From Vishniacozyma victoriae (lineage: Eukaryota > Basidiomycota > Tremellomycetes > Tremellales > Bulleribasidiaceae): 64,000 nt of DNA. The notes below the pieces were generated by a model. That model saw nothing but the letters and a program-made list of their open reading frames with translations. It was not told where the DNA came from and did no database searches. The stretch is from the NCBI GenBank assembly GCA_017654735.1, contig JADPYG010000091.1, positions 372,001 to 436,000 of the forward strand. Direction: 5' to 3'. Both the position numbers and the translations under genes were made by a program. This document shows positions 27,016 to 49,090 of the stretch, piece by piece; positions within the stretch are counted from its first letter, which is position 1, and each line of letters starts with the position of its first letter.

Positions 27016-27050
27016 GAAATAAGATTTCCCCTGGGGACGCCCTGGTTTTT
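27016..27050 (+). repeat. Two-hairpin/T-run element, copy 1
   Basis: Hairpin 1 GAAAT-AAG-ATTTC, spacer CC, then hairpin 2 CCTGGG-GACG-CCCTGG (one T/T mismatch), then five T ending at 27050. It is preceded by two further perfect hairpins (26945-26991) and, 136 bases upstream, by a TATAC block. Confidence 0.75.
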
Positions 27051-27576
27051 GTTGCTTCGGGTTTCGAAGGACGGTAAATGTGACCGCTGACGATTTCTTG
27101 ATATTGACTGCGCACAGACATACTGGACATTCAACCCCGCAGAACGGCGCGAGATCGAGCCTCCTCTGAGCTGTCTAGGCCGGGTCGAGGCTAGTACGGT
27201 GGCCAGGTGACATGCCTTGTAACGATATACTGTACTGTACGGACCAACTGTGACCAGGGTCAGTCGTATGCCGTGTGCTCTGTGCTCTGTTGAGTGCATA
27301 CTCTACCACGAACTCGTATGGTACCCGAGTATCAACGACCAGCTCACTCTGAACAACTTGTCTAAGCTTGGAATCAGCCCAATAATCCGTATATAAGGGC
27401 TTATTACCGATGGGCGAAGGGGGTCTCTATGGTGTAGAGGCCCTGTCAACGTCAATGCGAAAATCTATCAATGCGGAATCTTATGAAAATCTGCGGAAAC
27501 TAGTCAATGAAATCTCAAAATGCGAAAACCAATGTGAAGACAAGTCAATGATGCGCAGTGATGCGCATACAAGAAT

Positions 27577-27618
27577 AAAACCGAAAGGTTTTCCCAGTGG
27601 GACGCCACTGGTTTTTTT
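27577..27618 (+). repeat. Two-hairpin/T-run element, copy 2
   Basis: Hairpin 1 AAAACC-GAAA-GGTTTT (a GNRA loop), then hairpin 2 CCAGTGG-GACG-CCACTGG with seven perfect pairs, then seven T (27612-27618). The cleanest copy. A TATATAAGGGC block lies about 185 bases upstream. Confidence 0.85.
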
Positions 27619-28304
27619 GTTGTATTGCGCTCGGACGTCTCCTTCCCCGATTCTTCGGGCTCCGAGCTTGATAGTATCTCTACTTATACCCGCTGATCGT
27701 CCAGCCGGGTGAGGAAAGTACCGTGTAGATGAATTTCAGCGACCCGCGGCTTACAGCCAGACAGACCCAAATCAGATTGAACAATCTAAAAGGAGCTGGA
27801 CAGGCTTGCCCATCGATCGCATGTCACGTCGACATCTCTTGCGGTCAATGTAGTAATAAAATAACGTTGATCATTCATCTTGAATATCCCTGGTGTGGTC
27901 GGTGGAGAGCTTCCAGATTGTTTAAACTCTGCTATGGCAAAGCCAAAAAGCCATGTATCCATTGAATTCGAATCGTGGGGATTTCTACTGTAGGGTTTCA
28001 ACTTCGCCATTCCATTCCTGAAATAAAAAACCGGACCCATAATTGACGCTTAGGCAGAGTGAGAGTCTGCACAGACTAAGGCAGATTGACTGGATGAGGT
28101 ATATGTACCTCCAAAACACCACCATGGTGTCACACCCGGGACAGTATCGCAACAGCAAACTGACGACTGCCCGCGTGGAGCGTCAAGTGAGCTTTCGGTA
28201 TTGAGGAGGATAGTCAACCTTCGAATCACTGTAGGATATACTCCGCAGTTGATGAGAACAGCTCAATGCGCATTGAGCAGACAGACTATTCGCCGAAACA
28301 AAAT

Positions 28305-28347
28305 GAAATCGTAAGGTTTCCCCAGCGGGACGCCGTTGGTTTTTTTT
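28305..28347 (+). repeat. Two-hairpin/T-run element, copy 3
   Basis: Hairpin 1 GAAATC-GTAA-GGTTTC (GNRA loop, one U-G pair), hairpin 2 CCAGCGG-GACG-CCGTTGG (one G-U pair), then eight T. The perfect palindrome GCTCAATGCGCATTGAGC lies 27 bases upstream. Confidence 0.85.
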
Positions 28348-28829
28348 GCCAGCTCTGATCTGATACTCGGTCTTTTGAATGACGACTCGTTCTCTTCTCA
28401 CTCTCCTGTAGTATGGGATCTCGTCACTCGAATCCTAGTTATCGATGGTTTCTTCGCTTGATCTCAGTAGCTGGCAGAGTATCGACCAAGCTCGTCTCTT
28501 GAGAAACTGGCTGGAATCCGTCCTTGAGCTGTCACGCGGTTCACCTTTAAGATCAGTATAGCTAATCACATTCAATGGTAGTGTGATATCTCATAACAGG
28601 TGCCGAGACCAATCAGGATAATCTGAAACACGATCCTATTTACGATACGGCATATAAACACACACAAACCCATTCCCTCGCCGCATTAGTGGCCGAGGCG
28701 TTAGCGACACAGCATAAACCCTCATAAGACAAATAGACTACATGATCCTTCGTGACATTAAGACACTGAAACTTTCCTTGAACTTGGTTGTCAAGACCGA
28801 GTGATATAGATGTGGGTAGGTGGTAAAAT

Positions 28830-28876
28830 GAAACCTACTGTACTGTAGGTTTCCCCAGGGGACGCCCTGATTTTTT
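28830..28876 (+). repeat. Two-hairpin/T-run element, copy 4
   Basis: Hairpin 1 is longer here: GAAACCTAC-TGTACT-GTAGGTTTC, nine perfect pairs. Hairpin 2 CCAGGG-GACG-CCCTGA has one unpaired end position (C/A). Six T follow. TATAAACACACAC lies about 175 bases upstream. Confidence 0.82.
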
Positions 28877-29235
28877 GCTGACAACGCCTTTTTTCACTTC
28901 ATCACCTGATCAATAGCCTTACCTCAGCACTCCGTACATTTGTGCGTGAGATCGATTCATTCATATATCTAACAGAAGGAGAGTGAGGGCGGTACAGCCG
29001 AGGTTGATGTGTGATTTAGGGTCTAACGATATCCCCGAGAGGAGACCACATACACACAGACACGGTTTTAGCTCGGTTACCTCATTAGGATTGGAGCGTG
29101 AGTCGCATGCTTGCTAACCCGTGGAACTCGTCGTTCCGTTAATGATTGGGGATCGTCATGGTCATTTCATTTCAATTCTATAGACGTATCTATTTATCTA
29201 TTTCTCAACCCCAAATCTACTTTCCACTTCATGTC

Positions 29236-30748
29236 CTACATCTCCCCACATTCAACGACCCTCACGATCAATTTGGGTCTACGGCATCAGTTCAATCCTA
29301 CTAGTGCCTTAGACCGAGGGATCAATAGGACGTCGTAGGCCATGTTGAGATAGACATCGCCCCGACTTCCGGTTCAGGCTCGGGACTCACCGATTATTTG
29401 CCCCTGTGGGTACGTTCTCAATTTTCCTAACCACCAACATCCCTTCTACTACTCTCCCGAAAACACAGTGTTTACCATCGAGGAATTCGGCCGGGGCGCA
29501 TGTAATGAAGAACTGGAGTCAGCGAGAGCCATAGGCCCGAGAAGAGCAGGTTGGTGGGAAAGACGATTCGTCTTGGATGGACAAGCTCGGACAGAGATGA
29601 TGAGATTAGAGGGGATGACAGTCAAGAGGGAATAGAAGACTGAGGAGATTGAAGTTGCTGTAACTAGAGGAGGGACTTACTTGAGAACCATTCGTTCCAG
29701 GACCTGAATTCGCCTGGTTATCAGTACATTGTATCTCTCACTCGGAGTATTTTTCGGGAAAAACGAGTTCAGTGGATGTTGAGGAGGACAAGGAGGATAG
29801 CCAGAGAGACGAGGAGAAAGATCAGGGAGAAAGACACGAGACGTACCATACTCAATAACCCAGGACCAGTATGTCTGACTTTGAAATTCTCATCTTCAAA
29901 TACTCCACCCCCATAAATACTGAATGAACCAGTACCGTCATTTTTCAAGAAATCACCTCCTTGAATCATGAATTGTGGGATCCTGCTATCAGTTTTCTCT
30001 TCTCTATTCAGTTGTGGCTCCCTTCTTCCTTCCTGCTTCGTTAATCCTCTTTGCCCTTTCCGTCCATCTTGGATTCCTGACTCGCTAGACTTTGGAAAAT
30101 GGTTCACGGGGATTTAACTTACACACTGTTTCATTAGCATAAACACTCGAGTGGAGGGGGACGTACCGATGGAAAGTAGATTTCTTGTATCCCTGAGCGA
30201 GTTGATTCACCCTAAAGATCAGTACGATTCTCATAAACCAATGATATCCACGATCATCCCAATAACGGGTATATCATCATCCTCCTCATCTGTTCCATAT
30301 TGACGACACCCTTCCATATCCTCTCACTCTATTCACCTCAACTCCTAGCTCAATGTGCATGACCCTCATGTCTCCTCCAACTCCATATCCCTCACTTCTT
30401 CGTCCAAGGAATTACCATGACTTGGATAGATTAGGGGACATACCGATGTTCACCCGTGCATAATTGTCTGAAATTCTCTGCTGTCCTACCCCATCAGCTG
30501 TGTCCTGTACGCTGTACAAAGGCGTACTTGGGAGTGATATCACTAAACAATTCTATCATCAGCTTCTTCTCACTATATCCATCTACCAGCCCGTCCAAAC
30601 CTTCAAACCTCGTGCTCGAGGTCAATCCTCCGGAAATGGACGACTTACCGATCTTTATACGTCCTGCTGGTGTTTCTCCAATATTAATATCGAAGAATAC
30701 TACTGGTCTCGTTACTCCAGCTGGCGGTTCCAGGGATGTTGATGCCAT
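29236..30748 (-). CDS. Cyclophilin H-type peptidyl-prolyl isomerase
   Basis: Cyclophilins catalyse proline cis/trans isomerisation; the H type (PPIH) joins the U4/U6 snRNP. Eight exons. The spliced reading is [27 protein letters not shown] (two exons), [108 protein letters not shown]. The catalytic Arg ([14 protein letters not shown]), Phe, Gln and the FFIT and HCVFG stretches are intact. The [18 protein letters not shown] insert fits the H type. One position reads [10 protein letters not shown] before the Phe-His-Arg motif. The start was fixed at the first ATG before VTRPVVFFD. The terminal intron of about 100 bases was chosen to reach the ECGEM end. Confidence 0.93.
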
Positions 30749-31115
30749 TGTACGTCTGTGGATATGCTATCAAAGGTGAGTGTAATTGAATGCTAGGTGA
30801 CAAAGTGGACAAGTCAATTCAAGGGGCCTCCACGCGGGAGTATTTCTGCTCATCTAACACGCCCTAGGCTCAAGCCTTGGATGAGCGCGACGGTCATTAC
30901 TACCAAATGAAGTGCTGTATCAGACCAGGGATGCACGCATTTCAGTGATATGTATGTCATGACGCAACGACCACCAATTGTAATTGTATCAATCTACAAA
31001 AAGTGCTCAGTCGCCGGATAAAGAAATCCAAGTATTTATCCTTGTTTCCCTCATCCTCTACTCCCCCTCCTTCTCCTCTACCATAACCTCGCGTTCGCTG
31101 ACGCCGAATGAGAAT
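30749..31115. other. Intergenic, 367 bases
   Basis: Promoter of the cyclophilin gene and 3' end of the eL14 gene. Nothing else seen. Confidence 0.6.
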
Positions 31116-32115
31116 TTACTTGGCAGCCTTCTTCTCCTTGGTGTAAGCCCGACCGATCTGATCTCGTCGCGATCGCTTGGCGAGCTGGATCTGGAATCGG
31201 TCAAAGTCGGAGGTCTCCTAGTAACGTTAGCATTGTCAAGGGGATCAAGTACAGCATATCAAGACGAGTGCCCAATGTGGATTAGACAGTGGATGACCCA
31301 TGTCGATAGCGGCTGCACTACGCATCCTAGGACTCACCTTCCTTGACTGCCTAGCGGCCAACTTCTTTGCCCAAGAGCTAGCTTCCCACTTCTCAACGAC
31401 CTGTGCCTTTTCGAAAGCCTTCTTGATGGCTCCTGATCCAGCGGCTCGGGGTAGGGTGGTGATGGTGTAAGGGGTGAGGATTAGGTGTCGGTAGGCGATA
31501 GCTTGTCGGGGGACAGAGGTGGTGGGTCCGTCAATGAGAGCCTGGTTGTTAGCTTGCACTCGAGAACACGAGTCGCCGAAGGTGACGAGTGTGATTGCCT
31601 GTAGGGGATGGATATTCCATCTGGTAAGAATGAAGATATCCAATCCCCAACAAGACAATCCACCCGTCACCTAACGGTGATACACAGGTTGACTCACTCG
31701 GTTGTGGTCGATGATCTCGGCGATAACGGCAATGTGACCAGCGGAAGGTCCGTCGTTAACAAGGACGACTCGGCCGACTTCGACGAATCGCTTGAAGGTG
31801 GATGGTTGTTGGGGCTAGATGTTAGTTCTGGGTGTTTATGGATGTGTTGGTTGGGGCAGAGCAGCTGGTCCTTCTCCCTTTCTTTCCTTCCATCTCTAGC
31901 TTCGTTTGAGGCTCTCCATTTCTGTGTACTCCTCATCGTATCCATTGATGTTATCCTTGTACCAACATCCATCGTTGTCCATTCACGATGTTGCTTATCG
32001 CATTCCAATCTATCCCACATTCCTTTCCAGTTCCTCTCGAATTCCATGTCCTGATCCAAGTATCCAGCTGCTCTGCCTATTCACCACTTGCAATTGATGC
32101 TAGACTTACAGCCAT
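31116..32115 (-). CDS. RPL14: Ribosomal protein eL14
   Basis: Component of the cytosolic 60S subunit. Exons complement(32110..32115, 31698..31814, 31338..31541, 31116..31217), 142 residues. The first exon is just Met-Ala, a layout often seen in fungal ribosomal protein genes. Spliced reading: [33 protein letters not shown] joined to [20 protein letters not shown], then [37 protein letters not shown] and [14 protein letters not shown]. The stretch between HNR and ALIDGP (31542-31697) could be read in frame ([11 protein letters not shown]) but is an intron, because eL14 families run directly N-R-A-L-[IV]-D-G-P. Intron 1 is 295 bases long and holds a 14-base perfect inverted repeat. Confidence 0.95.
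31855..32077 (-). repeat. 14-base perfect inverted repeat inside eL14 intron 1
   Basis: GGCAGAGCAGCTGG at 31855-31868 and its exact complement CCAGCTGCTCTGCC at 32064-32077, 195 bases apart. Both arms lie well inside the 295-base intron (31815-32109), about 40 bases from each splice site, so the transcript could fold the intron into a long stem that brings the splice sites closer. Confidence 0.8.
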
Positions 32116-32665
32116 TGTTATTGTCGAACTACCCGATTGATGGAGAAGAGTGAGTGAATGCTTGACGGATGAACGATCAACTAGCACTCGAACGTGCATA
32201 GAGTCAGGGACAGGAATGCATGAACGTGGCACTTATTGCTTGTTCAACGGAGTTTCGGTGTTAGCTTATCACCGACGGACTCGAAATGCAAGACCGGAGA
32301 ATTGGAAACAAGTAACAATTTGTGTGGGTCAATGTCGGAGCAATCACGCCATCGGTAAATATTGGCAATATCTGTCATGAGTTGGTCAGCTAGTTCAAAA
32401 TAGGATTTGATTCCGTTGCGTCGATGTCGGAGAATGGGGCTTGGTCGATGCTTCTTACTGTGAACCCTCTTGCTATTATACTCATCTTGCTACAGTACCC
32501 TACGTCAATTCGACTCGACACCGACCACGCATTAATCGACGGTCCATACAATTCGCTGAATTCCATCAACACCGTCTGACCCGAAGCATATCAAATCAGA
32601 CAATCACCGGAAACATACAACTAGAAGGAAGGAACGTGCACCCACGCACCCCCACTACATCAAAG
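32116..32665. promoter_or_regulatory. Divergent promoter region, eL14 and bZIP gene
   Basis: 550 bases between two divergent starts. The bZIP side stays open in frame back to an ATG at 32441, so its 5' leader could add up to 75 residues. I see no repeats or RNA genes. Confidence 0.5.
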
Positions 32666-33541
32666 ATGTCATTCAATCTCCCACCCCACCTTTCCACTCT
32701 CAACTCGATCCCATCTTCATCACCACCAAGCGGTATCAACGATGAACAAGAAGAAGCATTCTGGGGGTACATGCATACCGACGATTTATTCGCAAACTTT
32801 GGATTCGTCCCTTCTCCAAGTGATGGGACCGATAAGAAAGAACAATCTCAAACTCAACAAACCATCGAAGGAGTTGATGCTCAGTTGAGAGCGGGAGTGG
32901 AAGCTTTACAACAACAGGAGAGTACACCGAGTACATCGACACAAACGCCTGCATCGACACTTGAATCGTTTTTAGCTGCTTTCGCTGGGGAATTGATGAC
33001 TCCCCTACCCGTCCCCGCCAATACACCCACTGTTGGAGTCAACACTTCCGATATCCTAGGAGAAGAGGAGGAGGATAAACCAAGTGGAGCCAAGAAGTTG
33101 AAGTCGTTAGGTGCAGGGCATGTTGAGATTGAGGAAGAGTACGTCTGGCTGCAGGCAGCCAGCTTGTCTGATGCGAAATTATCTTTTGATAGTCTCCGTC
33201 GGGCAGCTGTCTGTTTGGATTCGAAAGATCAATTGCTGACAACAAGCAGTAAAAGAAGACGTAATACGGAAGCATCCGCCCGATTCAGAGCAAAGAAGAA
33301 GGAGAGGGAACAAGCAGTAGAGAAGCGAGCTAGTAAGTGAAATTCATCTATCTTTGTGAATTCAGTTAACAATATCCCAGAGGAACTTGAAGCTCAAGTC
33401 TCTAAACTTCAATCTGAAAAAGCATCTCTAGAAAATGAAAATCGACTGTTGAAAGCAATAGTCCTAAATGGAACGGGTGGTCAGGCAGATGCGCTACAGG
33501 GTGCATTGAGTGCTTTTGGAAAGAGAAAGAGGGAGGCATAG
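32666..33541 (+). CDS. bZIP transcription factor, CYS3/MetR-like
   Basis: Exons 32666..33138, 33250..33332, 33381..33541. The N-terminal half is acidic and Ser/Thr/Gln-rich (activation-type). The basic region spans intron 1: DKRRRNTEASARFRAKKKER, with the N-x3-A-A/S-x2-C/F-R invariant positions (NTEASARF) typical of the ATF4/CYS3/MetR group that controls sulfur or amino-acid metabolism. The zipper follows across intron 2: KELEAQVSKLQSEKASLENE, NRLLKAIV, with Leu/hydrophobic heptads. The protein ends FGKRKREA. Start chosen at MSFNLPPHLS because the upstream in-frame extension to 32441 looks like leader. Assignment to the sulfur regulator is by motif similarity only. Confidence 0.85.
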
Positions 33542-33544
33542 GGC

Positions 33545-33661
33545 GTACGAGCGTAGCGAGTACGACTTGCGTCCAAGTACGTCGTAGCGGGCGAGCACGT
33601 CGTGCGGCCAAGTACGATGTGGCTGGACGAGTACGATGGATTAGAGTCCGTCGTAGCTGAG
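33545..33661. repeat. Degenerate short tandem repeat after the bZIP stop codon
   Basis: About seven units of 15-19 bases, each starting GTACG or a one-base variant and rich in CGTAG/CGTCG (for example GTACGAGCGTAGCGA, GTACGTCGTAGCGGGCGA, GTACGATGTGGCTGGACGA). GC-rich against an AT-rich surrounding 3' region. The stretch begins four bases after the stop. Confidence 0.7.
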
Positions 33662-34116
33662 TGGAAGGGAGTTGTCTAGGTGGGGGGAGTACAATTGTTT
33701 TATTCTTGGATACTTTTTAAGTTCTTGTTTCGTTTTTCTCATTTCTATTCCTCTAGATCTCCTATTCTTGTATAGGTTGTACAAATAAATATAAATAAAT
33801 GCCGTATTGTAGGCTCAAATTATGCAGTGTTCAACACCTGTTCCCTATATCTACTCTACCGCACATTCAATCTGGTATCAACATGAACAGCGAACAGCGA
33901 ATAAACGTGATTGACGAGAGTGAAGTTCCTTTCTTGGGTATTCACGACTTTGATTGATTGTCATACAGTACAGTACAGTACAAACTATCGGAACACTACC
34001 TTATCTGTACTCGTACATCTATCCCTAAAACGCCTGTGGCCCTCTCTTCGTCTTCTCCTACCTGTCATCGGTCCATTAATCGCCCATCTTTGACGAATAT
34101 TGCCCTTTCTCCAGAT
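33662..34116. other. Intergenic between convergent genes
   Basis: 3' ends of the bZIP and Rab5-type genes. AT-rich, with AAATAAATATAAATAAATG near 33786 that may serve as polyadenylation signal. No gene seen. Confidence 0.55.
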
Positions 34117-35623
34117 TTAGCAGTTACATGCGGATGGAGTCGCTTCGGTACCAGGTGTGACTTTCACTTTCCCAGCAGAGGAGGTTGTCGGTTTAGGTGG
34201 TGCAAGTGGTAATTTCCGAGCTATCATCAGTATCATTCCACGCATTGATTCCTCCCTGTTCTCGAAGCCCACCTCAATTAAGATTCCATGACCAAGAGGA
34301 AGGTAGGGAAAAGAACCAGGAGGAAGAGGAAAAAAGGGAAAACATACCAATCTCCATAAACAACCCTTCAACCCCTTCACCACTTTTAGCACTAGCTTCC
34401 CCAAATAATAATCCTTCTTCCTCGGCAAATAATTCTCCCATCTCTTTAGGTATTTTCCTTTGACTCTCTAGATCGGATTTATTGCCGACTAGCATTATTA
34501 TTGTTGATGGGTCGACCTGACGTTTGAGTTCCTTGACCCAGTTTTTCGCTTTTTCGAATGATGCCTGTTATCAGCGAAGGCCGCGATGATTTCTTGGGAG
34601 GGGGAAGACGATCTCTATAATAAGGGATATGATCTCGAGGAGGGTGAAAGTACCACCCATCCGACGGATCAAGCTGTGAATCGCGCGTGATGTGAGAGAA
34701 CAAGGGATTGGATGATGTGAAGACGAGCAGGAGAGGTTTGACATGGACGATGTGAGCATCAAACCCCCAGTGAGGTTCAATATGACCGTCGGCGGGAAGA
34801 TCCTTCTGTGATTGAATAGATCGACATCCTCAGACATACGCCTGCGGGACAGACCCGCCTGCGATGCACCGCCTCTCCTCTTAGAGTACCGCGAGGTGGG
34901 GGGACCAGCCTGGAAAGCCGGGGTATAGAACACGAGAGAAGGGGAGAAGAAATAAGGAGAAGATTGGACATACCTCTGGAGGCTGGGTTATATCATAGAC
35001 AATAACAGCAGCATTCGAGTTCCTAAAGTATATCGGAGCTAAGGATTTATATCCTATCTATCAGTTTCACGTTCCTTTGATTCTGGTTCGCTGAATTACG
35101 TTCTTGCCCAGCCTATATGTCAGCAGTAGTCCTCCCTTTTACTTGTGAAGAAAGATGAAGGGGGAGAAGGAAGAGCTAGGAGGAAGGAGAACTAACGGTA
35201 TCCCAGATTTCAAACTTGATAGCCGTGTTCTCATCTAGATTAACGGTTTGAGTAAGGAATGCGGCTAATCGTCAGCTTGCACCTCCCTCGAAGGACATGA
35301 AGCTCACCGCCTAGAATCAATGTCAGTATCCTCAGATGGTAAGAAGACAAAGGGGGACATACCAATAGTAGATTCCCTAAATTATCAGCTTATCACTGCG
35401 AAGGAGATAGATAAAGCATACCTGAAATCCGAGAATTCATTTCGGACCTACTCATCAGCTTGACAAAGTGAAGAGACTAGACTAGCTCACAAAGCGGAGA
35501 ACGAGCGAACTCTTTCCTACTGCCGATTCACCTATTTATCAGGATCTTGTACTTTTCTTGTGACTATTGACAAGGGGATGATTTACCTAGTAAGACGAGT
35601 TTAAATGCTGTTGTCTTTGACAT
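34117..35623 (-). CDS. Rab5-type small GTPase (YPT5/VPS21)
   Basis: Endosomal Rab that recruits tethering factors for early endosome fusion. Many small exons. Spliced reading: MSKTTAFKLVLLGESAVGKS (P-loop GESAVGKSS), SLVLRFVRNEFSDFRESTIG (switch I with the ESTIGAAF Rab5 signature), then [31 protein letters not shown] (switch II), NSNAAVIVYDIT, FEKAKNWVKELKRQ, LVGNKSDLESQR (NKSD), FGEASAKSGEGVEGLFMEI (SAK). The tail ends ATPSACNC-stop, a Cys-x-Cys geranylgeranylation signal. About 200 residues. Long introns (150 or more bases) interrupt the middle. Its likely effector partner, the VAC1-type FYVE protein, is encoded at 56.8-59.7 kb. Confidence 0.94.
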
Positions 35624-38835: not shown

Positions 38836-39272
38836 AGACCGGTCCAAATAGATTCAACGAGAGAGATATCGTTCAAGAAGAACAAGAGGGGACACCAAGA
38901 TGATGCCAGTAGGCAGAGGAGATAATCAGGATACCATCAGAAGTAGATATATGCATAAAGCTGACATATCAACCGTTGATCCAGATGGAGATAGTCTCGT
39001 ACTCGAACCTCTGACTCAGACTGACAATATCAGTGATCCTAGGACTCGAGTCTGGATGTCGCCGGACGACACCTTACTACTACGCCCCAGAGATGGACTC
39101 ATTGGGCACTCAGCCTCAAGATAGTACCCCCATGAGACTGCATACGAGACTAGCAAATCAGGATCAAATATTAATCGACATGTAAAATACTTTTGCACAA
39201 TGAATCGCAATAGCAACATCACGTCCTCGTTCCCTTTTCAAACAGAGATTGGTTCGGCCTACTCACATAGCC
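38836..39272. other. Intergenic between convergent genes, 437 bases
   Basis: 3' ends of the Mei2-like gene and the first membrane-protein paralog. No gene or repeat recognised. Confidence 0.55.
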
Positions 39273-40783
39273 TCAGAAAGCGGGATTCTTCTGAGAAGAA
39301 TGAGAGATAGGCGAAGCATCCCTTCGGTAAGACTATCATCAGTATCCCTCTGTATCGACAAGACACAAGAAAAGAAGGAACGCACTTGAGCAGGAACAAC
39401 AACTTCCCCCAACTCCAAATCCCTCTCTTTAACATCCCCCTCACTCTTGGTCTCACCGCCACCGTAGGTAGCAACGAAGATACTTTCCCCCGCCTGAGTT
39501 GAATGGTCGGCTTTAAGCATGCCATTCGATGCCAGTGATGTACCTAGCATTTGTCGGATTGTAGCTCTGGCCACTAGGGAATGAAGGAGGGACACGTAGA
39601 ATAGAGTTGGGATCAACATCTTTACTGGTTTTCGGAAATCCGCTGGAGGTTAGCTTTCTATCGTCAATTGTAAAGAGGAGGAGATGTACCGGTTGGAGAA
39701 GCTTTGGAGGCGTCTACATCGAGGATAAGGATACAAATGACGGGAGGTAACCTATCATCAATCGTTACTCTTGTGAGAAGGTGGAAACTTACATGGTCTC
39801 AAGAATTAGGACCACCAATTTATGATAAATCCTCTTTTCTTGATGGAAGACACTCTCCCTGGATTTGATAAGGTAAAACAACACTATTTGTTAGCCAAGC
39901 AAAAGTATCTAACAAGCAATAAGGACTTACTAGTAACGACAATCATCCCATCACTAGTCATTGCCAATGCTCCCCAAGCTTTTCGAAGTGGAATCAACCC
40001 TTCATTAAACGTCTTTAGCTTCATGATTGTTTCCATAGTCACCTCGGGACTGGTCATTCCTTTGATGGCGATGCTAAACATCAGCACCTCTGTCTCATGT
40101 CGAGAAGAGGTGGACTCACAAAGTACCCATCACGAACGTAGCTGTTGTGAAGGTCATGATAAACGATCCGAGCCACCATTTTCGTCCAGACATCTAATCA
40201 TCAGTCATGTCCAAGTATACGGTGAGAAGAGGGGTAGACTCACCCTGTAAGCTCTTGAGGCGTAGTACGACGATGCAGCGATATTGAGAAAGGCTCCGAG
40301 GAGATCAGAGACGTTCCCGCCAATTGATTCGAATCGACGGACGGTGTGGAAATCGGTAAAAGCATGTCGAGAAAGTTCCCATGCCTATCCATTAGCTCAA
40401 GTCTCTTCAAACGAAAGGGGGTGATGAGCTTACCTGAGCAACACAGATCCCAAAATGAGCGCTGATATCAGCAAACAACCTCGAACGGTCGGGAGGACGT
40501 ACCAAGCGGCAGTAGTGCCCAGAGCAACACCCATCTGCATCCACCTATTATCCCTATGATGAAAGAATTCGTAATACCTTCCGGTATCAAGCAAGATCTT
40601 TCCAGTGGCCATGGATACGAAGGTAGCTCCAAGGATTGTCCATGACTATCATTAGCTCTCCTTGTAGCATGAACTTACAGTCATCTTGGCTGGGTTACTT
40701 TGAAGACCCATGAACATGATTTGATCGAGTGTGGGTCTGCCAGTAGCGCCACCGCTCGGGGTTGTGCTGTTACCACCTTGCAT
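39273..40783 (-). CDS. Multi-pass membrane protein, paralog A (DUF6534-like 7-TM type)
   Basis: One of four paralogs in the window. Start MQGGNSTTPSGGATGRPTLD, then QIMFMGLQSNPAKMT, SWTILGATFVSMATGKILLD, TGRYYEFFHHRDNRWMQMGV, then a short exon CAHFGICVAQ, AWELSRHAFTDFHTVRRFES, IGGNVSDLLGAFLNIAASSY, MSGRKWWLGSFIMTFTTATF, LIPLRKAWGALAMTSDGMIV, VFHQEKRIYHKLVVLILETM, LPPVICILILDVD and LHSLVARATIRQMLGTSLAS. About seven hydrophobic segments, an extracellular-type N-terminus and a polar tail ending SYRRDASPISHSSQKNPAF. The order of helices and the W-x3-D and R-L-x3-T segments resemble basidiomycete DUF6534 proteins; function unknown. Closest to paralog D at 50.2 kb. Confidence 0.8.
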
Positions 40784-42045
40784 TGGATGAAGTAAAGTTG
40801 AGTAACAGTAAAGGTGGAGATTTGGGGGAATTGAGTAATACGAGCGTCGTACACATGATATATATCATGTTGAAAGTGAATCAAAGATCTAGTGAGCTAT
40901 TTCAAGATCCAACCTCCTTTCGGACCCAATTATTCAAGCCCGAATCGGACAGATGTCAGACTGGTGTACAGCTTCAATTGAAGGGGGTCATTGAGTGTGT
41001 CCGTCATGAGTTTGATGTGAATCATCCTTGCGATCTATACCTGAGCCGGCGTCGGTGTCAAATTTATCGAATCACCCTCAAAGGATGGACTTAATCCACC
41101 ACACAAAGTTCGGACCCGCCTTGCTCCCTTTGATTCATGGATATCCCTTGGAAGGGAACATGCAGTGTTCGAGATGCAGATCAGTGTTCCTTTGATTGGA
41201 GCTATTTTGATACTTGAGAACAAGTTCGGGAAGAAAGCTGGAGATGGTCCCGGTCGGTACACAATCGAGTTCGGGATCCTAGTTTGAAGGATGTTGTAGC
41301 CTGTGGTGGGATCCCCCATATCTCGGAGGAGGTCCCGAGGTACTGGGTTGCTCGCTTCTTTGATCCCTCTCGTTATTCTACATACCCTCAAGTGGCTTCT
41401 GATGTAGTGGCATACCTCCGAAGTGCAAGTCATACAGACGATGAGGATCATAGGGATACTAACTAGTATGGACGTGGCAGCGGTCCGGTCTGGCCGAGCT
41501 TGTGATTACGTAATTGAGGTGATCTCGCCCGCTTGGCCAAGACGCGTTCAGGAATGACTGTGCAAATGAATCACCTGTATTCATGTAACAATGAGCGACA
41601 AGATAGCTAGCTACCTGCCTACTCCCTCGGAATGTAATACGCCTACCTTTGGATCTTCAGCCGCTTCAGCGATCGCATTGACCCTTATTATAGATCGGAG
41701 TACTGGCACAAGAAGGCGGGCGATCCTAAACCGATCACCCTCCTTGGGGCCGGGACGGAGATGCTCCTCTTAACTCATGTTCAGGAACCCTGTCAATCTC
41801 CCTTTGAATGGACATGCTAATTCCAAGCCACAAAACAGAAACGGAGACGCCAAAACAAGGTCCCAAAGGAGATCATCAAACGAGTGGGGGATGGTACACA
41901 CACATTCTAGTTAACGCAATTTTCAATAATGCTTCGGATTCAAAGGACCTATCTTGATAGTCGTCATGTTGGATTTTAGCTCTAGCTAATAATACGAGCT
42001 CGATGGTCATATACCAAATTGTATCTTGTCAACCTCACTATTACG
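40784..42045. other. Gene-free divergent intergenic stretch, 1.26 kb
   Basis: Separates the starts of paralogs A and B. Several open frames exist on both strands, but none shows family features or plausible splicing. A sequence at 41845-41880 (agacgcc flanked by aaac and aaaac) faintly resembles the two-hairpin element but lacks its stems. Confidence 0.55.
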
Positions 42046-43740
42046 ATGGAGAATGGACCACCTAGAATGTCTGTGGATGAGATGCTGTGGATGGGGATCG
42101 GATCTAATCCTGGTAAAATGCTTGTGCGTTATTTCCTTCCATCTGACTTCATTGGGCTAATGGGTAGAGCTGGGCGATGATGGGATCCGTCGTTGTTGCT
42201 ATGGTCACTACCGTTATTCTATCAGACACTGTCAAGTATTACGATCGCTTTGGATTTACCGACAAGAAGCTAGCTATTGGATTAGGTTTTGGCACTCTGG
42301 CTGTCTTGTATGTCTCCTCTCGATGTCGTAGCTGATATGAGATCGCATCTCGCAATCACAATTGCTCAAGTTAGTCCTCGATTGATCGCATAGGATCGCA
42401 GCTGATATAAGGCATTTGAACTTGGCCTACATGCTTATACCGATTACGCAAATGTCAATCTATTCGATTTATACGCCAACACAACTTCGGACTTGATCGG
42501 TGGGTTCTTTGCGCTATGGGCCGCAAGCTACTATTCAGTCCAAGTGTTCAAGGTGAGTCTAGTTCCTTATCGATGACACGCACCGGCTAACGGTCAAGCT
42601 GTCCAGAAGAAACTATTGGGTGATGGTACCGATCGTCGCACTCAATCTGGGAACGTTCATCATGACCCTCGCGTATGTCGTCCTGTCTATCGCATATCAG
42701 AAGCTGACAAGTAGAGTCGCAGGAACCGGATTCAATTGCCCCAAAGCATCCTTCTCGACCATGATGGAATTGATTCAATTCAATGTTCGTCGAATCCCGT
42801 TCTTCAAGGCTTGGGGGGTATTTGCGTTCGTGGACGACGTGACTATCTGGCTCGCTAGTGAGTAGTCTCACCTTCCACCAGACGATACTGATGCCTAGTG
42901 ACGTATTATCTCCTCAGGGTAAAAGGGAGTATGCTCCATCGCCAACGAAAATTACTTGCAAAATTGCAGACGATCTTGCTTGGGACCATGTACGTCCACC
43001 TTTGCGATCGAGCTAATGATAGGTTTCCACCAGTCTTGATCTGTATGATCCTGCTGGCTACTGCAGATACCAAGTCTGCCAATATAGGTTCGTTACTTCG
43101 ACGAGGTCCTTGTCCAGAGGCTGATGACTAGGTGACTATAGACGAGTCATCAGAGTCATCCTTCCCGTGTTCTACTACCTCTCTCCACTTCACTCGATCG
43201 TCACCAGAATCGACCTCAAGGAAGCATTCAGCAGTGAAGATGACGCGACAAATGCCGATAGTATACCCCTATCACCCAAGACGTCCCAATGGCCAGAACA
43301 AGAAAGAGGTCAACACTCGACCATCCACATTGATCCGTTGAGGGGTAAGATCCATTCAGTCATTGGAGCCACATCTACCAGTCAAAGCGTAGGAGGCGGA
43401 TTGGTACGTCTACAAACTACTGAATGAGCTGATGGTAGGAACCACATGCTCGGCCTGCTAAAGGGACCTTTGGACTCGTTTCCGAGCTCGATACTGGATC
43501 TGACGGATCTGATACACCACCCGAAAAGGTAGGGTATCAATTCAACGCGGATAAAGCAGACCACAAGTCTGCTATAGTAAGTCCAGCCTTGTGTCATGGG
43601 AGCAAGCTAATCTGTAGAAATGGCAAGATCCACATATCCCAAGAACAACGACTTTTGGATATTCAGATACTATTGAGGAATTAGAGTCGACCACTCCTCG
43701 GATCATGCCAGATGCGGTGCTGGGTCCTATGCGCTTTTGA
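42046..43740 (+). CDS. Multi-pass membrane protein, paralog B (DUF6534-like)
   Basis: Start MENGPPRMSVDEMLWMGIGS, NPGKML, then SWAMMGSVVVAMVTTVILSD, TVKYYDRFGFTDKKLAIGLG, the short exon SHLAITIAQ, AFELGLHAYTDYANVNLFDL, YANTTSDLIGGFFALWAASY, LSRRNYWVMVPIVALNLGTF, NVRRIPFFKAWGVFAFVDDV, MTYYLLRVKGSMLHRQRKLL, MFPPVLICMILLATADT, GDYRRVIRVILPVFYYLSPL. Exon borders match those of paralogs A, C and D, including the tiny exon ending in Ala-Gln. The acceptor that opens with LSRRNYW was set by comparison with paralog D (MSGRKLW). The cytosolic tail contains DSIPLSPKTSQWPEQERG and HSTIHIDPLRG, shared with paralog C. About 430 residues; function unknown. Confidence 0.8.
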
Positions 43741-44131
43741 TCTTGCTCCCGGTAATTGTGGCTTATAGTATGTCTCGGATCCCTCATTGTACTTGTCGAC
43801 TATGCACGTCCCCGTATTTGACGAACATCGGGAGTGAACAATAGATGAAACCGATCTATTTACGATAATCATCCTTTCGGCTCGCAACCGATACTTCTCT
43901 CCGAAAGCCTGTCCGAAACCCTCGAAAGCCACCACTTTAAAGGGTCAGCAGATTGTTTCCTCACCCACACGCCTCGACCCCGCGAAGATTGGTGGCTTTG
44001 TGTGTGTTAAAGGAGGCCTTGACGATTGGTAGGCGACACCTGTCATTTGACCTATTGGGTATTTTGAATACCCATAAGTTACTTATTCATCTATCACTCA
44101 TCTAACGTTATTCTACTCATATACCTATCCA
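43741..44131. promoter_or_regulatory. Tandem intergenic, 391 bases
   Basis: 3' end of paralog B and promoter of paralog C. Includes the short palindromic-looking GGGTATTTTGAATACCC at 44058-44074 (GGGTATT/AATACCC around TTG). No gene seen. Confidence 0.55.
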
Positions 44132-45941
44132 ATGAACAGTACAGAACCACCGAATGGACCTCCTGGAGGTCAACGACCCAGTTTAGACCAGATCATTTGG
44201 ATGGGAATTGGATCGAATCCAGGGAAAATGCTCGTTAGTCTCCCTTCATTTGGTCTTTGCGTGACTAATGAGATAGGGATGGTCAGCGATAGGATCAGCT
44301 GCGGTATGTATGCTCCTCACCAAGATACTCTCGGACACAGTCATTTACTATGACCACTACGGATTCAGGAACCACAGGATGGCAATCGCCATTGGTATCG
44401 GGACGACTTTTGCTTGGTAGGTCAATTATGTCAATTCGGGATGTATGTAGCTGACTACTAGCGTTCACGTTGGTATCACGTGTGCTCAGGTCAGTCGCGA
44501 CACACTCTTACAAGCTAGCTGATGTCCAGACATTTCAACTAGGTCGATTCGCTTATACTGACTACGCCTCTATCGCTGGATTCGACAATTACGCCAATAC
44601 CACCTCGAATCTCATAGGCGGGTTGTTCAACTTTGCCGCAGCTCTTCATTATACCAATCAAGTGATGAGAGTAAGTGTTCGAAGGGGAAAGACATGTAGC
44701 GCTGATTGTAGTTATCAAACCGGAAACTTTGGCTATTGATCATCATCATGACCATCAATACTGGTACTCTCGCCTTGACCTTGGCGTAAGTCTCTTTAAC
44801 TACGGCTTGGGCGTGCATCTGATATGTAGAGTAGCTATCGAGGGATATCGGATCCCGCCTCCCGAAATGGCAAATCTGGCAAGATATCGCGAGCTCAATA
44901 TTGGTCGTGTAGCTTTTTTCAAGGCTTGGGGTGTATTCTCGTTGCTTGGCGATATCGCTGTATGTGGAACAAGTAAGCTTATCCAAAAAAGGTCACGCTG
45001 GCGGTGAGATTGATGAGTAGTGACTTATTACCTTTTAAAAATCAAGGACAGTATCATGCACAAACAAAAGAGACTCGTCTACAAGCTCCAAACTCTGGTC
45101 GTTGGTACCATGTGAGTTGTCTCTTCAAGGTCAATCACCCAGTGACTAAAAGTCAGGCTGCCACCCGTGATTTTGACTTTGATTCTCGCTGTTTCCCAGA
45201 AAAGCGGCACTTCCAACATTGGTGAGTGAATCAGCTTTTTTCCATGCCAAGCTGACCTGTAGGCGATTACCGTCGAGTGGTCAAGACAATCTTACCCGTG
45301 CTCTACTATCTCTCCCCACTACATTCCATCGTGACCCATATCGATCTTCGGGAGGAGATCAGGGATAGAGATGACGATACCACCAACCCCGACAGTATAC
45401 CGCTCTCACCACACGAATCGCAGTGGAAGGGTCAGCATTCGACTATACACATCGATCCGCGCAGGGATAAGGAGACACCCTTGAGGCAGAGCGATGATAC
45501 GTATGGTATTGTCGAGAAGGATGTGAGTAATTACAAAGTGCAAGAGGAAGTAGCTAACAGGTAGGACACTCCAAAAGAGATACCTTGTAAGAGGACGTTT
45601 GGCGCCGTCGAGCCAATCAAATCAACTTTGAGGCCTGTGCCTAAGTCATCACCCAAACCAATCGATAGGAGCCTGATCCCAGATGCGGTATGTCCCAACG
45701 ATAGCTCTTTGACTGATGATAGGTCGATTACGGGAATCAGAAACCGAGCAAGAGGACTTTCGGAGCGATCGAGGCGATTAGCGAACAGGAAGATTCGAAT
45801 GATGGTCATGATTGTCGTGAATCAACTCTTGGATTGGTTTCGGCTCGACACCCGTTCGCTGGGCACTCAATGGTATTGGAGGAGGAGGATGAAGTTTGGA
45901 TTCACGACCATGCCGAGGTAAAGCAGGCGGGTGTAATGTAG
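44132..45941 (+). CDS. Multi-pass membrane protein, paralog C (DUF6534-like)
   Basis: Start MNSTEPPNGPPGGQRPSLDQ, IIWMGIGSNPGKML, with the same exon plan as paralog B: CVHVGITCAQ, TFQLGRFAYTDYASIAGFDN, YANTTSNLIGGLFNFAAALH, LSNRKLWLLIIIMTINTGTL, NIGRVAFFKAWGVFSLLGDI, MTYYLLKIKDSIMHKQKRLV, LPPVILTLILAVSQ, GDYRRVVKTILPVLYYLSPL. The tail has DSIPLSPHESQWKGQHSTIH, then an exon with KRTFGAVEPIKS and another with KRTFGAIEAISE, which looks like a local exon duplication. It ends EVKQAGVM. Closest to paralog B, which lies just upstream in the same direction. Function unknown. Confidence 0.8.
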
Positions 45942-46291
45942 TCTTGGGACCTTTCTCGGTTGAATAAAGGTAAATGGGAAAGCGAATAGCCTTGGGTTGT
46001 CTAAATTGTACTTATTCCATGCACAGTCTCCGGAACCATGAAACTGCATAGACTTAGCAGAAAGTCGAAACAAGACCTCACCGGCCTTTACTTAAGGATT
46101 CCTTGCGGTTTGAGTGCTCATTGGGTGCTACACCCAACGAAAGACGATGATAATCTCTCTAACCCTGGGAGTCGATTGCATTGCCTCTAAGATAAATCTG
46201 ACTCTTTGACAGGTGCACTTTATCCCTTCCTCTCACCTACTCTGCCCGAGACCAAAAAGAGGATCCAGAGATCTCAGATCAAATCCCACAT

Positions 46292-46329
46292 AAAAACCGA
46301 GGGCGTCCCCCCGGGGAAACTTCGATTTC
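46292..46329 (-). repeat. Two-hairpin/T-run element, copy 5
   Basis: On -: hairpin 1 GAAAT-CGAA-GTTTC, hairpin 2 CCGGGGG-GACG-CCCTCGG (one G-U pair), then five T. It is preceded on the same strand by a stem of 16 bases (46335-46350 with 46410-46425) and, about 121 bases upstream, by GGTATATAAGCGCCC. Confidence 0.83.
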
Positions 46330-46801
46330 ATTCAGGAGTCCAAGGTGAATGTAAATGATGTACAAAGGAGAGGTTCCAAAGTTTGTCGCAAAGTGCCATT
46401 AACCAAAGTATTCACCAAGGACTCCCGCTTGACATAGGGAATTGGGCGCTTATATACCGATGCAGAGATCTTGGTGAGATCTGAGTATCGATCTGGATTA
46501 GATCTCGAATTTGACGAGGTGTATTACACGACCGTGATAGTTGTCAATTTGCGAGCTGGCTTATCATGTAAACGGGATATGCCCCATAGCTGGAGCAACA
46601 CTCTGGCTGGCACCTTCAATGCGAACTTGTTAACGGAGTATCTATCAATCGTCGATACGCAAAGTAAGCCCCAGACCTACCTTTCCGCTCCGCATCAGAC
46701 GTCAAGAGGCTACTAGACCCACAGGATGTCCCGATGAGCTCGGACCTCAAAAGGGATGAATTTTTGTTTTCTCACAGATCTGGCCGTGAACCAAGAACGG
46801 C

Positions 46802-46840
46802 AAAAAACCAGTGGCGTCCCATTGGAGAGACCTTGGTTTC
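46802..46840 (-). repeat. Two-hairpin/T-run element, copy 6
   Basis: On -: GAAACC-AA-GGTCTC with one A/C mismatch, then CCAATGG-GACG-CCACTGG with one A/C mismatch, then six T. In this copy both odd pairs become G-U if the opposite strand is read, so it argues against the - strand as the RNA strand. TATTTAA lies about 90 bases upstream on -. Confidence 0.78.
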
Positions 46841-47311
46841 ATTGTTTTGAGCGAATTGAGAGAAAAGTGTTGAGTGTCCTGTAGACCGTTTCACTACATA
46901 AGACCCCGATATGATCATGTGATAAGGACTTAAATAGCTGTTTTGGGAGCGACATGCCGAAAGCGTTCCCTAGCCCCCAGAATCAATGCGATCTCGGGTC
47001 CGACATGCATCCATGCCGAGTGATGGCACATACAACCTTAGTGATATTTTGTGGATAGCTTAAAGAAAGGTTTCTTTGTCACAGACTGTACCAAGTTGTA
47101 TGCGGATATCGAGATCAATGGGAGTCCATCGGCGTGGTGGCAAAATAGCTCATCACCCGCGAAGCAACTTGTTTGGGAAGGACCCTACCTGGTCAATCTT
47201 GAATTGGCATTTAGCACGCAGCGTCCAGACTCGAACACCAGCCTCTATAGCCTCTCCATCCGTGATGCTCGGCTTCCAAAAAGGGTTCAATGTCTCACCT
47301 GTGAGAAAAGC

Positions 47312-47352
47312 AAAAAACCGACGGCGTCCCGCCGGGGAAACCCGAAGGTTTC
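47312..47352 (-). repeat. Two-hairpin/T-run element, copy 7
   Basis: On -: GAAACC-TTCG-GGTTTC, a C(UUCG)G tetraloop hairpin, then CCGGCGG-GACG-CCGTCGG with one G-U pair, then six T. A further hairpin GGGGTCC/GGACCCC lies upstream (47413-47431), and a TATATG block about 103 bases upstream. Confidence 0.85.
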
Positions 47353-48235
47353 ATTTGTGTGTACCGGTAGCAAGGATATGTAGCTCAAGGTATCGGCTTC
47401 AAGAGTATCCCGGGGTCCCACCTGGACCCCAGAAGCCTGCTTTTCAGGAGGGTTCATATAGGTGAAACATCTGGGATTTAGGGGGATTTGAGGGTCTGAG
47501 CTTGGACCGCTGGAATGCGGCTGCAGTGCGTAAGAGGTAGTCCGGGGCTGCCATGGCGTATGAGGACCATTGGGGCATTACTGATCAATATTTGACCATG
47601 GTGATGACAGGATGTCGAACCCCCATAGTTGTTCCCGGATGCCCTCATCACCGGGGCGAAAGTCATCGCGATCACAGCCGCGGAGCTGACCAGTTGATAC
47701 CGAAGCTGTATTCAGTGACAATTCATACCAGAGGATCTGTAGGTCCTGCGATCAGCGAGCTTCGTCGCACGCGGATGTGACGTCTCTTTCGGACTCAGAC
47801 GACAATAGTGCCGGTCGAGAAGCATTGCAGCGCGAGGGATCTGTCTCGTCCCTTGCTCCACTCACGTATGATGAAAGACTCGCACTACACCCTTGATGCT
47901 CGTTGTATATCCTTGTGCGGCGATACCTAGGCTCATGTCATTTGACCGCTGATGCAATGATCCGCTATGGAGTTTCGTGTGATGAGCCTCTCCCACAAAG
48001 GTATGGACCGAGCTGAGGGGTGTAGGTGCCTGAGCAACACACACATATTCCAAAGGACGTCTACCGTCTCTGCTTTTCCACCGGCTACTCCCAAAGCAAG
48101 AAGCAGAACGCGAATCGAACCACCCTACTTCACCTTTCCGACTCCTGTTCAGCTTGAAATCCTTTGTATGGCATCATTACTCCGCATTCCGCAATATGTA
48201 TTGCATCAGATATCAAATCAAAAGGAAAGAGGGGC

Positions 48236-48271
48236 AAAAACGGCGGGCCCACCGGAAAACCCGAAGGTTTT
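48236..48271 (-). repeat. Two-hairpin/T-run element, copy 8 (variant)
   Basis: On -: AAAACC-TTCG-GGTTTT (UUCG loop), then a diverged second hairpin CGGTG-GGCC-CGCCG with one U-G pair and without the GACG loop, then five T. TATAAATA lies about 115 bases upstream, and TGCGCA directly upstream. Confidence 0.75.
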
Positions 48272-48866
48272 ATTGCGCATGTTGGCCATAAAAGTCGCAT
48301 GTCACTGTTGTCTGAGGGTTTAGCAAAGACCCTAACTGCCCGGCGCAGTTTAACCACCGGCGTCAAGATTGAGTCGTTCCAAAGGTATTTATACCCTATG
48401 TGTGTCCGTATTCCCCTTGCCTCGCCTTTCAGGTACGTGCTGTGCATGGGTCTGAGCCTTATGAAGCGGTCTCTGTGAAGAAGATCAGAACCGATCTTCC
48501 GTCTCCTCCATGGCTCTATCTTGTTCTACAGCTCACGCTACAGAGATGTCCAGCGGTAGAGGGGTTTGCCGATAGCAAAAAGTACCATCAGACGCAGACT
48601 GACGAAGTCGAATTTCTGAGGTTGTGAACGACAATAACCTGCCGCATCCACCGGGGGGGGAATCTTTCGATCTCACAACAAAGTCTGCCACCTTGTCATG
48701 AGCCAGCTCTGGCGCGGACTCCGGACAAGGTTGGCAGACCCGCTTAGTCGTCTCTTCCCAAACGATTCATATACCCTGGCTGTCCCTCTTCAGACGCTTC
48801 TGAAAACCTTCCTATCGGTGCCTAAGGTGCACGTCATGCATTCAGCCCACCAAAAGCAGCAATAGC

Positions 48867-48904
48867 AAAAAACCTACAGCGTCCTGTAGGGGAAATTAAG
48901 TTTC
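48867..48904 (-). repeat. Two-hairpin/T-run element, copy 9
   Basis: On -: short first hairpin GAAA-CTTAA-TTTC, then CCTACAG-GACG-CTGTAGG with seven perfect pairs, then six T. No clear TATA-like block upstream. Confidence 0.8.
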
Positions 48905-49053
48905 ATCAGGGACAGGAGAAGTGTGGGACGATTGTTTGTAGGATGTGTGTAAAGAAGAGACGAACTCACCAAAAGGATCAAGCCACTACACCAAAGTCCC
49001 CCGAGGGGGACATACGAGCCCCTTCCTTTGATACTATGATAGGCAGCGGTGAC

Positions 49054-49090
49054 AAAAAACCGGGGCGTCCCCCGGGGAAACCGGAGTTTC
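49054..49090 (-). repeat. Two-hairpin/T-run element, copy 10
   Basis: On -: GAAAC-TCCG-GTTTC (a UNCG-type loop), then CCGGGG-GACG-CCCCGG with six perfect pairs, then six T. It begins next to the TTTGG-rich repeat block. Confidence 0.82.

Follow-up and report, generated by a model that had tools for sequence, protein, structure and literature searches.

Organization of the element family

A stretch of 64,000 nt from Vishniacozyma victoriae (GCA_017654735.1, JADPYG010000091.1, positions 372,001–436,000 of the forward strand), hereafter the window, harbors a family of short elements built on a single plan: an (A)TGAAAC-type hairpin 1 is followed—mostly after one unpaired C—by a hairpin 2 of 5–7 bp and a run of 5–8 T (Table 1). 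Ten such elements had been proposed in a sequence-only reading of this DNA, and all ten were confirmed on the strands assigned to them, including the 5–8 T after hairpin 2 (at least five T in every case). The loop of hairpin 2 is indeed GACG in nine of the ten, the exception being m3 (48236) with GGCC. The C spacer described between the hairpins is likewise present, as one unpaired C in most copies rather than "two or so".

In total, 12 strong and two degenerate copies were found, 11 of them in the window, within 22 kb; these 14 are a lower bound for the searched genome, the model search itself having covered both strands of the window. The strong copies outside the window, C5a on contig C5 and one on contig C11, are matches of the covariance model R1 described below. 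The degenerate copies, m2b (48633–48671, minus strand) and its counterpart C5b on contig C5, are assigned by homology and position; R1 misses m2b, which follows m2 in the same order as is kept by the C5 pair. Both m2b and the copies beyond the window had been overlooked in the earlier reading. No additional copies were found in the 8 kb on each side of the window. Two looser genome patterns, for each of which the first 30 loci were inspected, gave almost as many control matches as real ones, and two pattern matches on viral contigs, having neither a T-run nor an R1 match, were judged to be due to chance. The predicted RNAs are about 100–215 nt long, one perhaps 380.

Table 1. Elements and predicted promoter features in the window (positions are those of the window)
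Feature	Position	Strand	Remarks
p1 TATA-like TATACATA	26877-26884	+	
p1 3′ two-hairpin element + T-run	27016..27050	+	R1 22.9 bits, E 4e-4, held out
p2 predicted TATA TATATAAG	27390..27397	+	exact TATAWAWR, 222 nt before T-run
p2 A box TGGTGTAGAGG	27430..27440	+	exact TRGYNNARNNG, 40 nt after TATA
p2 3′ two-hairpin element + T-run	27574..27617	+	R1 63.0 bits
p3 TATA-like TATATGTA	28100-28107	+	
p3 3′ two-hairpin element + T-run	28302..28345	+	R1 65.6 bits
p4 predicted TATA CATATAAA	28651..28658	+	1 mismatch, 220 nt before T-run
p4 A box TGGCCGAGGCG	28690..28700	+	exact, 39 nt after TATA
p4 3′ two-hairpin element + T-run	28827..28876	+	R1 36.6 bits, held out
p4 B-box-like AGATCGATTCA, past T-run	28949..28959	+	weight matrix 6.7, p 0.16 alone
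m6 3′ two-hairpin element + T-run	46291..46332	-	R1 61.6 bits
m6 TATA-like TATATAAG	46449-46456	-	
m5 3′ two-hairpin element + T-run	46802..46843	-	R1 62.3 bits
m5 A box TAGTGAAACGG	46886..46896	-	exact, 40 nt after TATA
m5 predicted TATA TATTTAAG	46929..46936	-	1 mismatch
m4 B box TGTTCGAGTCT, past T-run	47227..47237	-	p 0.017
m4 3′ two-hairpin element + T-run	47312..47355	-	R1 63.6 bits
m4 TATA-like TATATGAA	47453-47460	-	
m3 B box GGTTCGATTCG	48111..48121	-	121 nt past T-run start; 1 mismatch to GGTTCGANTCC
m3 3′ two-hairpin element, loop 2 GGCC	48235..48274	-	R1 28.8 bits, held out
m3 A box TGGTTAAACTG	48346..48356	-	exact, 37 nt after TATA
m3 predicted TATA TATAAATA	48386..48393	-	exact TATAWAWR
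m2b degenerate eleventh copy, without clean T-run	48633..48671	-	C5b homology 74%, E 0.1
m2b long body hairpin	48672..48745	-	same fold kept in C5b
m2b GGGTATATGAATCG	48763-48776	-	
m2 3′ two-hairpin element + T-run	48867..48907	-	R1 57.4 bits
m2 19 nt identical to C5a, with B-box-like GTTCGTCTC	48957..48975	-	
m2 A box TGGTGTAGTGG	48983..48993	-	exact, 40 nt after TATA
m2 weak TATA-like TATCAAAG	49026..49033	-	1 mismatch, 161 nt before T-run
m1 3′ two-hairpin element + T-run, gene start uncertain	49054..49093	-	R1 41.1 bits, held out
m1 TATA candidate TATACCCC	49456-49463	-	picked by eye

Covariation of the two-hairpin module

The covariance model R1, built from six window copies and scanned over both window strands, recovers all ten proposed elements with E 4.9e-17 to 4e-4, the next matches in the window being three at E 2.1, 3.0, and 8.6. 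A model derived from the copies had been suggested as a check, and six copies suffice to find the other four, which were held out: 49054 (E 1.3e-9), 28827 (E 2.9e-8), 48235 (E 6.5e-6), and 27016 (E 4e-4).

Covariation was evaluated in an alignment of 12 copies (the ten in the window, C5a, and the C11 copy) that is fitted to the model and consists of related sequences. Here, 94.8% of 153 cells are paired versus 79.9 upon shuffling, two-sided change affects 9 of the 13 base pairs (4.5 shuffled) and 25 cells (6.6 shuffled), and the covariation score is 0.50 (0.19 shuffled); none of 500 shuffles was as high in any of these measures. Further pair types numbered 17 compared with 13.4 in shuffles, a value reached in 14/500. 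Shifting the partner by 1–3 columns left at most 54.7% paired. When the 3′ arms of the eight 7-bp stems were re-dealt, the observed 54 of 56 pairs were equalled in 8 of 40,320 permutations, the same procedure being uninformative for the three 6-bp stems (4/6 permutations). Both arms of the stem change together, as had been proposed, and a lack of covariation, which the sequence-only reading had named as an argument against itself, is excluded on these paralogues of one genome. Folded singly, the p1, m3, and m6 elements are no more stable than shuffles and m1 is only slightly better; the best fold of m2 is devoid of hairpin 1, and m5 folds differently from the common plan. Selection acts on the folded module, and the elements constitute one family.

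Promoter boxes

Promoter boxes are enriched at the elements. A TATA-like box (pattern TATAWAWR) is located 117–240 nt upstream of the T-run in 12/14 copies versus 4.2 in shuffles, m1 and C5a being without one in the scanned range. An exact A box (TRGYNNARNNG) is found in five copies (0.97 shuffled; 0/500 shuffles) and absent from nine; with one mismatch allowed, 10/14 copies carry it (5.6 shuffled), a count reached by one of at least 100 shuffles. All five exact A boxes lie 35–52 nt after the TATA box, a range fixed after inspecting the data, compared with 0.037 copies in shuffles (0/1000), and the window's 59 other T-runs all lack this combination. Besides the TATA box, the search for a shared upstream element yielded as best 8-mer one present in 5/13 copies, and 30 random sets reach 5–7.

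Sites resembling a B box, situated mostly 60–151 nt past the terminator, constitute weaker evidence than the TATA and A boxes. The strict pattern occurs downstream of 5/14 copies versus 2.6 in shuffles (sd 1.4), which is not significant; a relaxed pattern, picked after the strict one, occurs in 9/14 (2.8 shuffled), one m1 site also falling inside m2. By weight matrix, Fisher p is 0.0027 on the RNA strand and 0.90 on the opposite strand, and the m3 site GGTTCGATTCG is scored as well by 0/300 shuffles. Eighteen of the 19 nt common to m2 and C5a are found solely at those two places (allowing at most two mismatches). As these 19 nt hold a B-box-like core, a promoter role may explain their identity.

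Database comparisons and coding potential

Rfam 15, with which the earlier reading had suggested a comparison, gave no match over the window at the gathering score; below the cut-off, the two arrays gave chance-level matches alone (E up to 5). No snoRNA family was matched at the gathering score, a sub-threshold SNORD49 match lying at 48562–48621 on the other strand. U6 and RNase P were not found by Rfam in 11.58 Mb of a possibly partial genome; the same searches were silent in 14/14 control genomes and therefore permit no statement on the absence of these RNAs. Neither the window nor 53 examined loci contained a tRNA gene, and no Pol III gene of the same genome, U6 included, was found for comparison.

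A protein-coding role was rejected, the longest open reading frames in the 14 predicted transcripts comprising 50 aa (C5a) and 23 aa (m6), and inspection of intronless frames of the chosen sizes near the elements revealed no CaaX pheromone-type peptide genes. Guide–target pairing was likewise dismissed for want of any exact match of at least 13 nt between the bodies and the window outside the arrays.

Interpretation and alternatives

Covariation, the TATA and A boxes, and, more weakly, the B-box-like sites support a view of the element as the constant 3′ terminus shared by predicted Pol III genes. The elements are almost certainly a structured RNA family, and transcription by Pol III is likely. 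The sequence-only reading had proposed that the elements are copies of a structured small RNA, or form the structured 3′ end of such an RNA, and that they have a Pol III-like terminus; covariation together with TATA and A boxes at a fitting distance supports both proposals.

The bodies preceding the module are almost unrelated: scarcely any 9-mers are shared, and only the tail is common to members. The same would be expected if hairpins and T-run were a mere termination or end-stability device of unrelated small Pol III genes without a shared RNP, given that a terminator requires just a hairpin and then a T-run. The recurrence of loop GACG in 9/10 elements, the core GAAA/TTTC in hairpin 1, and the unchanging distance between the two hairpins would, however, be superfluous for a plain terminator, and we regard such a device as unlikely. 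A role as Pol III transcripts from which Dicer would release microRNA-like small RNAs by cutting a body hairpin is less probable still. The p1, m6, m2b, and C5b bodies are far stabler than shuffles (z −3.7 to −5.8, m6 at −3.7), the genome has Piwi domain matches, and milRNAs of Neurospora are mostly Pol III-made (PMC3547838); yet z exceeds −2.5 in 10/14 bodies and is near or above 0 in four of these, and what the family members have in common is their 3′ module rather than any hairpin of the body.

Pol III boxes, a T-run, and copies on three contigs would also be compatible with the elements being 3′ termini of SINE-like mobile DNA. This is very improbable: 11 of the 14 copies found in a lower-bound genome search are arrayed in 22 kb rather than dispersed, no transposon-like spread is seen, the bodies are unlike one another, and two window genes recur in the same order in the C5 pair, as expected of segment duplication. 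Least credible are attC-like sites, at which a recombinase reads folded single-stranded DNA with unrelated sequence between; repeated structured sites with a kept fold and unrelated spacers resemble them, whereas same-strand promoter boxes lying at fixed distances, the polarity of the T-run, and the lack of a recombinase among 20 open frames scanned speak against them.

We consider it probable that the genes form a Pol III non-coding RNA family in which fast-changing, member-specific bodies are joined to a constant 3′ module that would act as a handle for one protein common to all members. Transcription would start about 30 nt after the TATA box, with the A box just within the gene as in yeast SNR6, and would stop in the T-run, the B box lying mostly past the terminator. 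Each RNA would end in the common covarying two-hairpin module and a U-tail, its body being free to vary. The module might shield the 3′ end and load one common RNA-binding protein (La/LARP or other), each member forming a small RNP whose own body sets what it acts on. From the design of the family, the balance tips slightly toward the module being a handle for one shared protein; that the members are trans-acting regulators is a tentative suggestion drawn from the same design. Rather more doubtful is a complete modular system akin in design to bacterial small RNAs, in which a shared protein-binding handle is joined to target-choosing bodies in duplicating and diverging arrays.

The Pol III RNAs known from fungi are mainly tRNAs, 5S, and a small number of housekeeping RNAs encoded by single genes. 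The present elements may belong to a fungal non-coding RNA family that has not been described before; if so, many genes that combine a constant covarying tail with almost unrelated bodies would define a new class of fungal non-coding RNA, raising the questions of what protein recognizes the tail and what role the bodies play. R1 and the TATA/A box/T-run layout offer a direct search route for Kwoniella, Cryptococcus, and Tremella.

Comparison with known systems

In 7SK and some telomerase RNAs, a 3′ hairpin bound by LARP7-type proteins directly precedes a U-run. The elements described here share the hairpin with a U-run directly after it, but differ in forming a multigene family with two hairpins, in having no Rfam match, and in that their binding protein is hypothetical.

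Dictyostelid Class I RNAs are an intergenic, clustered multigene family with a conserved stem showing compensatory changes and a variable remainder (PMC7919456), features that recur in the present family. Those RNAs are about 60 nt long; their 5′ and 3′ ends pair in a stem, and they have an 11-nt motif and a DUSE promoter. In contrast, the RNAs predicted here measure 100–215 nt and carry local 3′ hairpins with a T-run; the 3′-terminal stem pairs locally, covaries (12 copies), and joins no 5′ end, and no DUSE-like element is evident, the best upstream 8-mer (5/13) being within the range of random sets (5–7).

Pol III-transcribed milRNA genes of Neurospora are likewise fungal and intergenic, with TATA-like boxes and poly-T, some also having putative A and B boxes (PMC3547838). 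They are not described there with a common 3′ module, and most bodies here, unlike theirs, are not long hairpins (4/14 with z at or below −3.7).

The predicted promoter layout resembles, more tentatively for the B box, that of SNR6, the U6 snRNA gene of Saccharomyces cerevisiae, where a TATA box lies upstream, an A box in the gene, and a B box beyond the T-run terminator. Whereas SNR6 encodes U6, the present genes are many, their bodies are unrelated, none matches an Rfam family, and some copies are without a clear A or B box. The combination of upstream TATA and internal A box is found, in its exact A box version, in 5/14 copies, and the distance between boxes A and B, 202 bp in SNR6 (PMC9136082), is 235 in m3 and 259 in p4.

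Two Arrays of a Two-Hairpin Element

The ten two-hairpin elements with a T-run proposed in the sequence-only reading are all present when the sequence is read directly. On the strand of the T-run they share the order (A)TGAAAC, loop, GTTTC, one unpaired C, another stem whose loop is GACG, and finally 5–8 T; the GACG loop occurs in nine of ten copies, the exception being 48236 (m3), which carries GGCC. Four elements (p1–p4) form a plus-strand array at 27.0–28.9 kb and six (m1–m6, numbered from 49054 downwards) a minus-strand array at 46.3–49.1 kb, so that the two arrays face each other. Folds of single copies are uneven, with z < −3 for p2, p3, and p4 and about 0 for p1, m3, and m6.

Covariance model R1, of the kind the same reading had called for, was built from six copies (alignment A2) and, with filters off, recovered all ten in the window at E 4.9e-17 to 4e-4, four of them held out; the three remaining matches had E 2.1, 3.0, and 8.6. 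In the genome sequence searched (11.58 Mb, 17 contigs; the window is C14:372001–436000), three search patterns had 0 matches to the reversed control, and two looser ones gave 39 matches vs 28 controls and 88 vs 66. Application of R1 to 52 sources (50 genome stretches and two viral) yielded two strong new copies: C5a, with 48 bits, on contig C5 near 316.4 kb, and C11, with 38 bits, on contig C11 near 2733.7 kb. All four remaining matches had E 0.1 or worse; one of them is C5b (13.5 bits), about 220 nt after C5a. The C5 block (L086 4515–4978, about 3.3 kb from the contig end) holds two genes ordered like m2 and m2b, the latter a degenerate eleventh window copy adjoining m2.

A DNA search with the minus array as query aligned three segments to C5, one of 83 nt with 80% identity (E 6.4e-11), one of 70 nt with 74% (E 0.1), and one of 19 identical nt (E 0.7). 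The second aligns C5b with m2b. Because m2b is not recovered by R1, membership of this pair rests on mutual homology, order, and inspection by eye. The C5 block is an old duplication between contigs. With the plus array as query, no second location was matched, the sole alignment being an 18-nt piece inside the array itself.

Covariation of the Stems

The compensating stem changes noted earlier are borne out by two tests. In alignment A4 (12 related copies, the alignment being fitted to the model), 94.8% of cells are paired and nine of 13 pairs show two-sided change. Two-sided cells number 25 vs 6.6 in shuffles and the covariation score is 0.50 vs 0.19, none of these four values being reached in 500 shuffles; the count of further pair types is less clear (17 vs 13.4; 14/500 shuffles reach it). 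The second test is alignment-free and leaves out m2b, C5b, and m3: when the 3′ arms of eight 7-bp stems were re-dealt, only 8 permutations out of 40320 attained the observed 54 of 56 pairs. A set of three 6-bp stems was uninformative. Selection on an RNA fold is shown for at least 12 gene ends.

Candidate Promoter Boxes and Predicted RNAs

Promoter boxes were scanned in 14 copies (the ten window copies, m2b, C5a, C5b, and C11). In keeping with the earlier suggestion of a 3′ end of a structured small RNA, a TATA-like octamer (at most one mismatch) lies 100–260 nt before the T-run in 12 of 14, vs 4.2 (sd 1.7) in 100 shuffles, and an exact A box (TRGYNNARNNG) lies 260–40 nt before it in five, vs 0.97 (0/500 shuffles). 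TATA stands 35–52 nt before an exact A box in p2, p4, m2, m3, and m5 (5/14 vs 0.037; 0/1000 shuffles), a distance range fixed after the first matches had been viewed, of which the plain A-box count is independent. The pair is found at none of the 59 other window runs of five or more T. With one mismatch and the range placed by TATA, the A box occurs in 10/14 vs 5.6 (sd 1.8), the top of 100 shuffles also being 10.

For the B box, the strict pattern is not significant (5/14 vs 2.6, sd 1.4); a relaxed pattern, downstream only, gives 9/14 vs 2.8 (sd 1.4). Scoring with a weight matrix built from a consensus gives Fisher p 0.0027 for the RNA strand, compared with 0.90 for the opposite one, the signal being carried by m3, m4, C5b, and C11. 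The 19 nt conserved in m2 and C5a contain B-box-like GTTCGTCTC, which may be the reason for their conservation. Apart from these boxes, no motif common to the upstream regions was detected. The elements are shown to be enriched in Pol III boxes, most clearly TATA and the A box; the two-hairpin element is the end of a predicted gene, and transcription of these genes by Pol III is likely.

Measured from 30 nt after TATA to the T-run, the predicted RNAs span about 105–216 nt for p1–p4 and m2–m6 and about 100 nt for C11; that of m1 would be about 380 nt if TATACCCC at 49456–49463, chosen by eye, is used for it. Upstream of m1, minus strand 49100–49290 is low-complexity, with ACCAAAG and ACCCAAAG repeats, its RNA being predicted unstructured. 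The longest ORF in any of the 14 predicted transcripts is 50 aa. Exact 9-mers common to the bodies (the portions upstream of the shared end) are one in p4/m3 (10 nt), two in m2/C5a (19 and 11 nt), and one in m2b/C5b (9 nt). Body starts follow the TATA choice and are provisional for m1, m2, and C5a. Compared with shuffles, folding is much stronger in four bodies (z −5.1 for p1, −3.7 for m6, −5.8 for m2b, −4.0 for C5b), moderately stronger in p3 (−2.4), and no stronger in the nine others. Folded separately, the m2b and C5b helices have 27 and 28 pairs by dot-bracket count, 23 in common by 5′ position. Thirteen keep their register whichever end is counted from: nine are identical, three are changed on one side, and one on both.

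Neighboring Genes

Protein-gene fragments between and beside the arrays encode bZIP, Ras-like, and ribosomal L14 proteins. Frame 9553–11937 matches eight named Kwoniella proteins at 35–39% and metagenome proteins at up to 90%, a pattern that puts the fungus within or close to the Tremellales, to which Kwoniella belongs. Frames in 39266–51253 resemble a small membrane-protein-like gene present several times over, judging by eye from peptide stretches in common and from a 58-nt direct repeat, 74% alike, at 42780 and 44895. A Pfam scan of seven frames gave no match.

Protein-coding features in the window
Feature	Position	Strand	Evidence
Deoxyhypusine synthase gene piece	22678–23325	minus	Pfam E 7e-47
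Membrane-protein-like repeat frame	39266–39649	minus	shared peptide stretches by eye
Membrane-protein-like repeat frame	42563–43424	plus	shared peptide stretches by eye
Membrane-protein-like repeat frame	44078–45561	plus	shared peptide stretches by eye
Membrane-protein-like repeat frame	50119–51253	plus	shared peptide stretches by eye
Isocitrate/isopropylmalate dehydrogenase gene piece	62058–62738	plus	Pfam E 3e-23

Relation to Known Systems

Comparison with Rfam 15, also proposed in the sequence-only reading, gave no match. No title or abstract opening among the open-licence papers listed (for two of the searches, 15 of 63 and 8 of 3,750) describes such a family. In PMC5640933 (15 candidate fungal RNA motifs), a term search with the stems used gave no mention of basidiomycetes, Tremella, or Cryptococcus.

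The shared tail would serve as a handle for a common protein, and the bodies would act as member-specific effectors. For the hairpin-bodied members, Neurospora microRNA-like RNA genes (PMC3547838) offer an alternative model. Piwi domain matches occur in this genome (best E 1.4e-55). In the predicted Pol III genes, the order TATA, box A, terminator, and putative box B corresponds to that of yeast SNR6 (PMC9136082). Closest in style are the dictyostelid Class I RNAs, which are likewise clustered and combine a covarying constant stem with a variable rest (PMC7919456), whereas their defining stem and promoter are unlike those described here.
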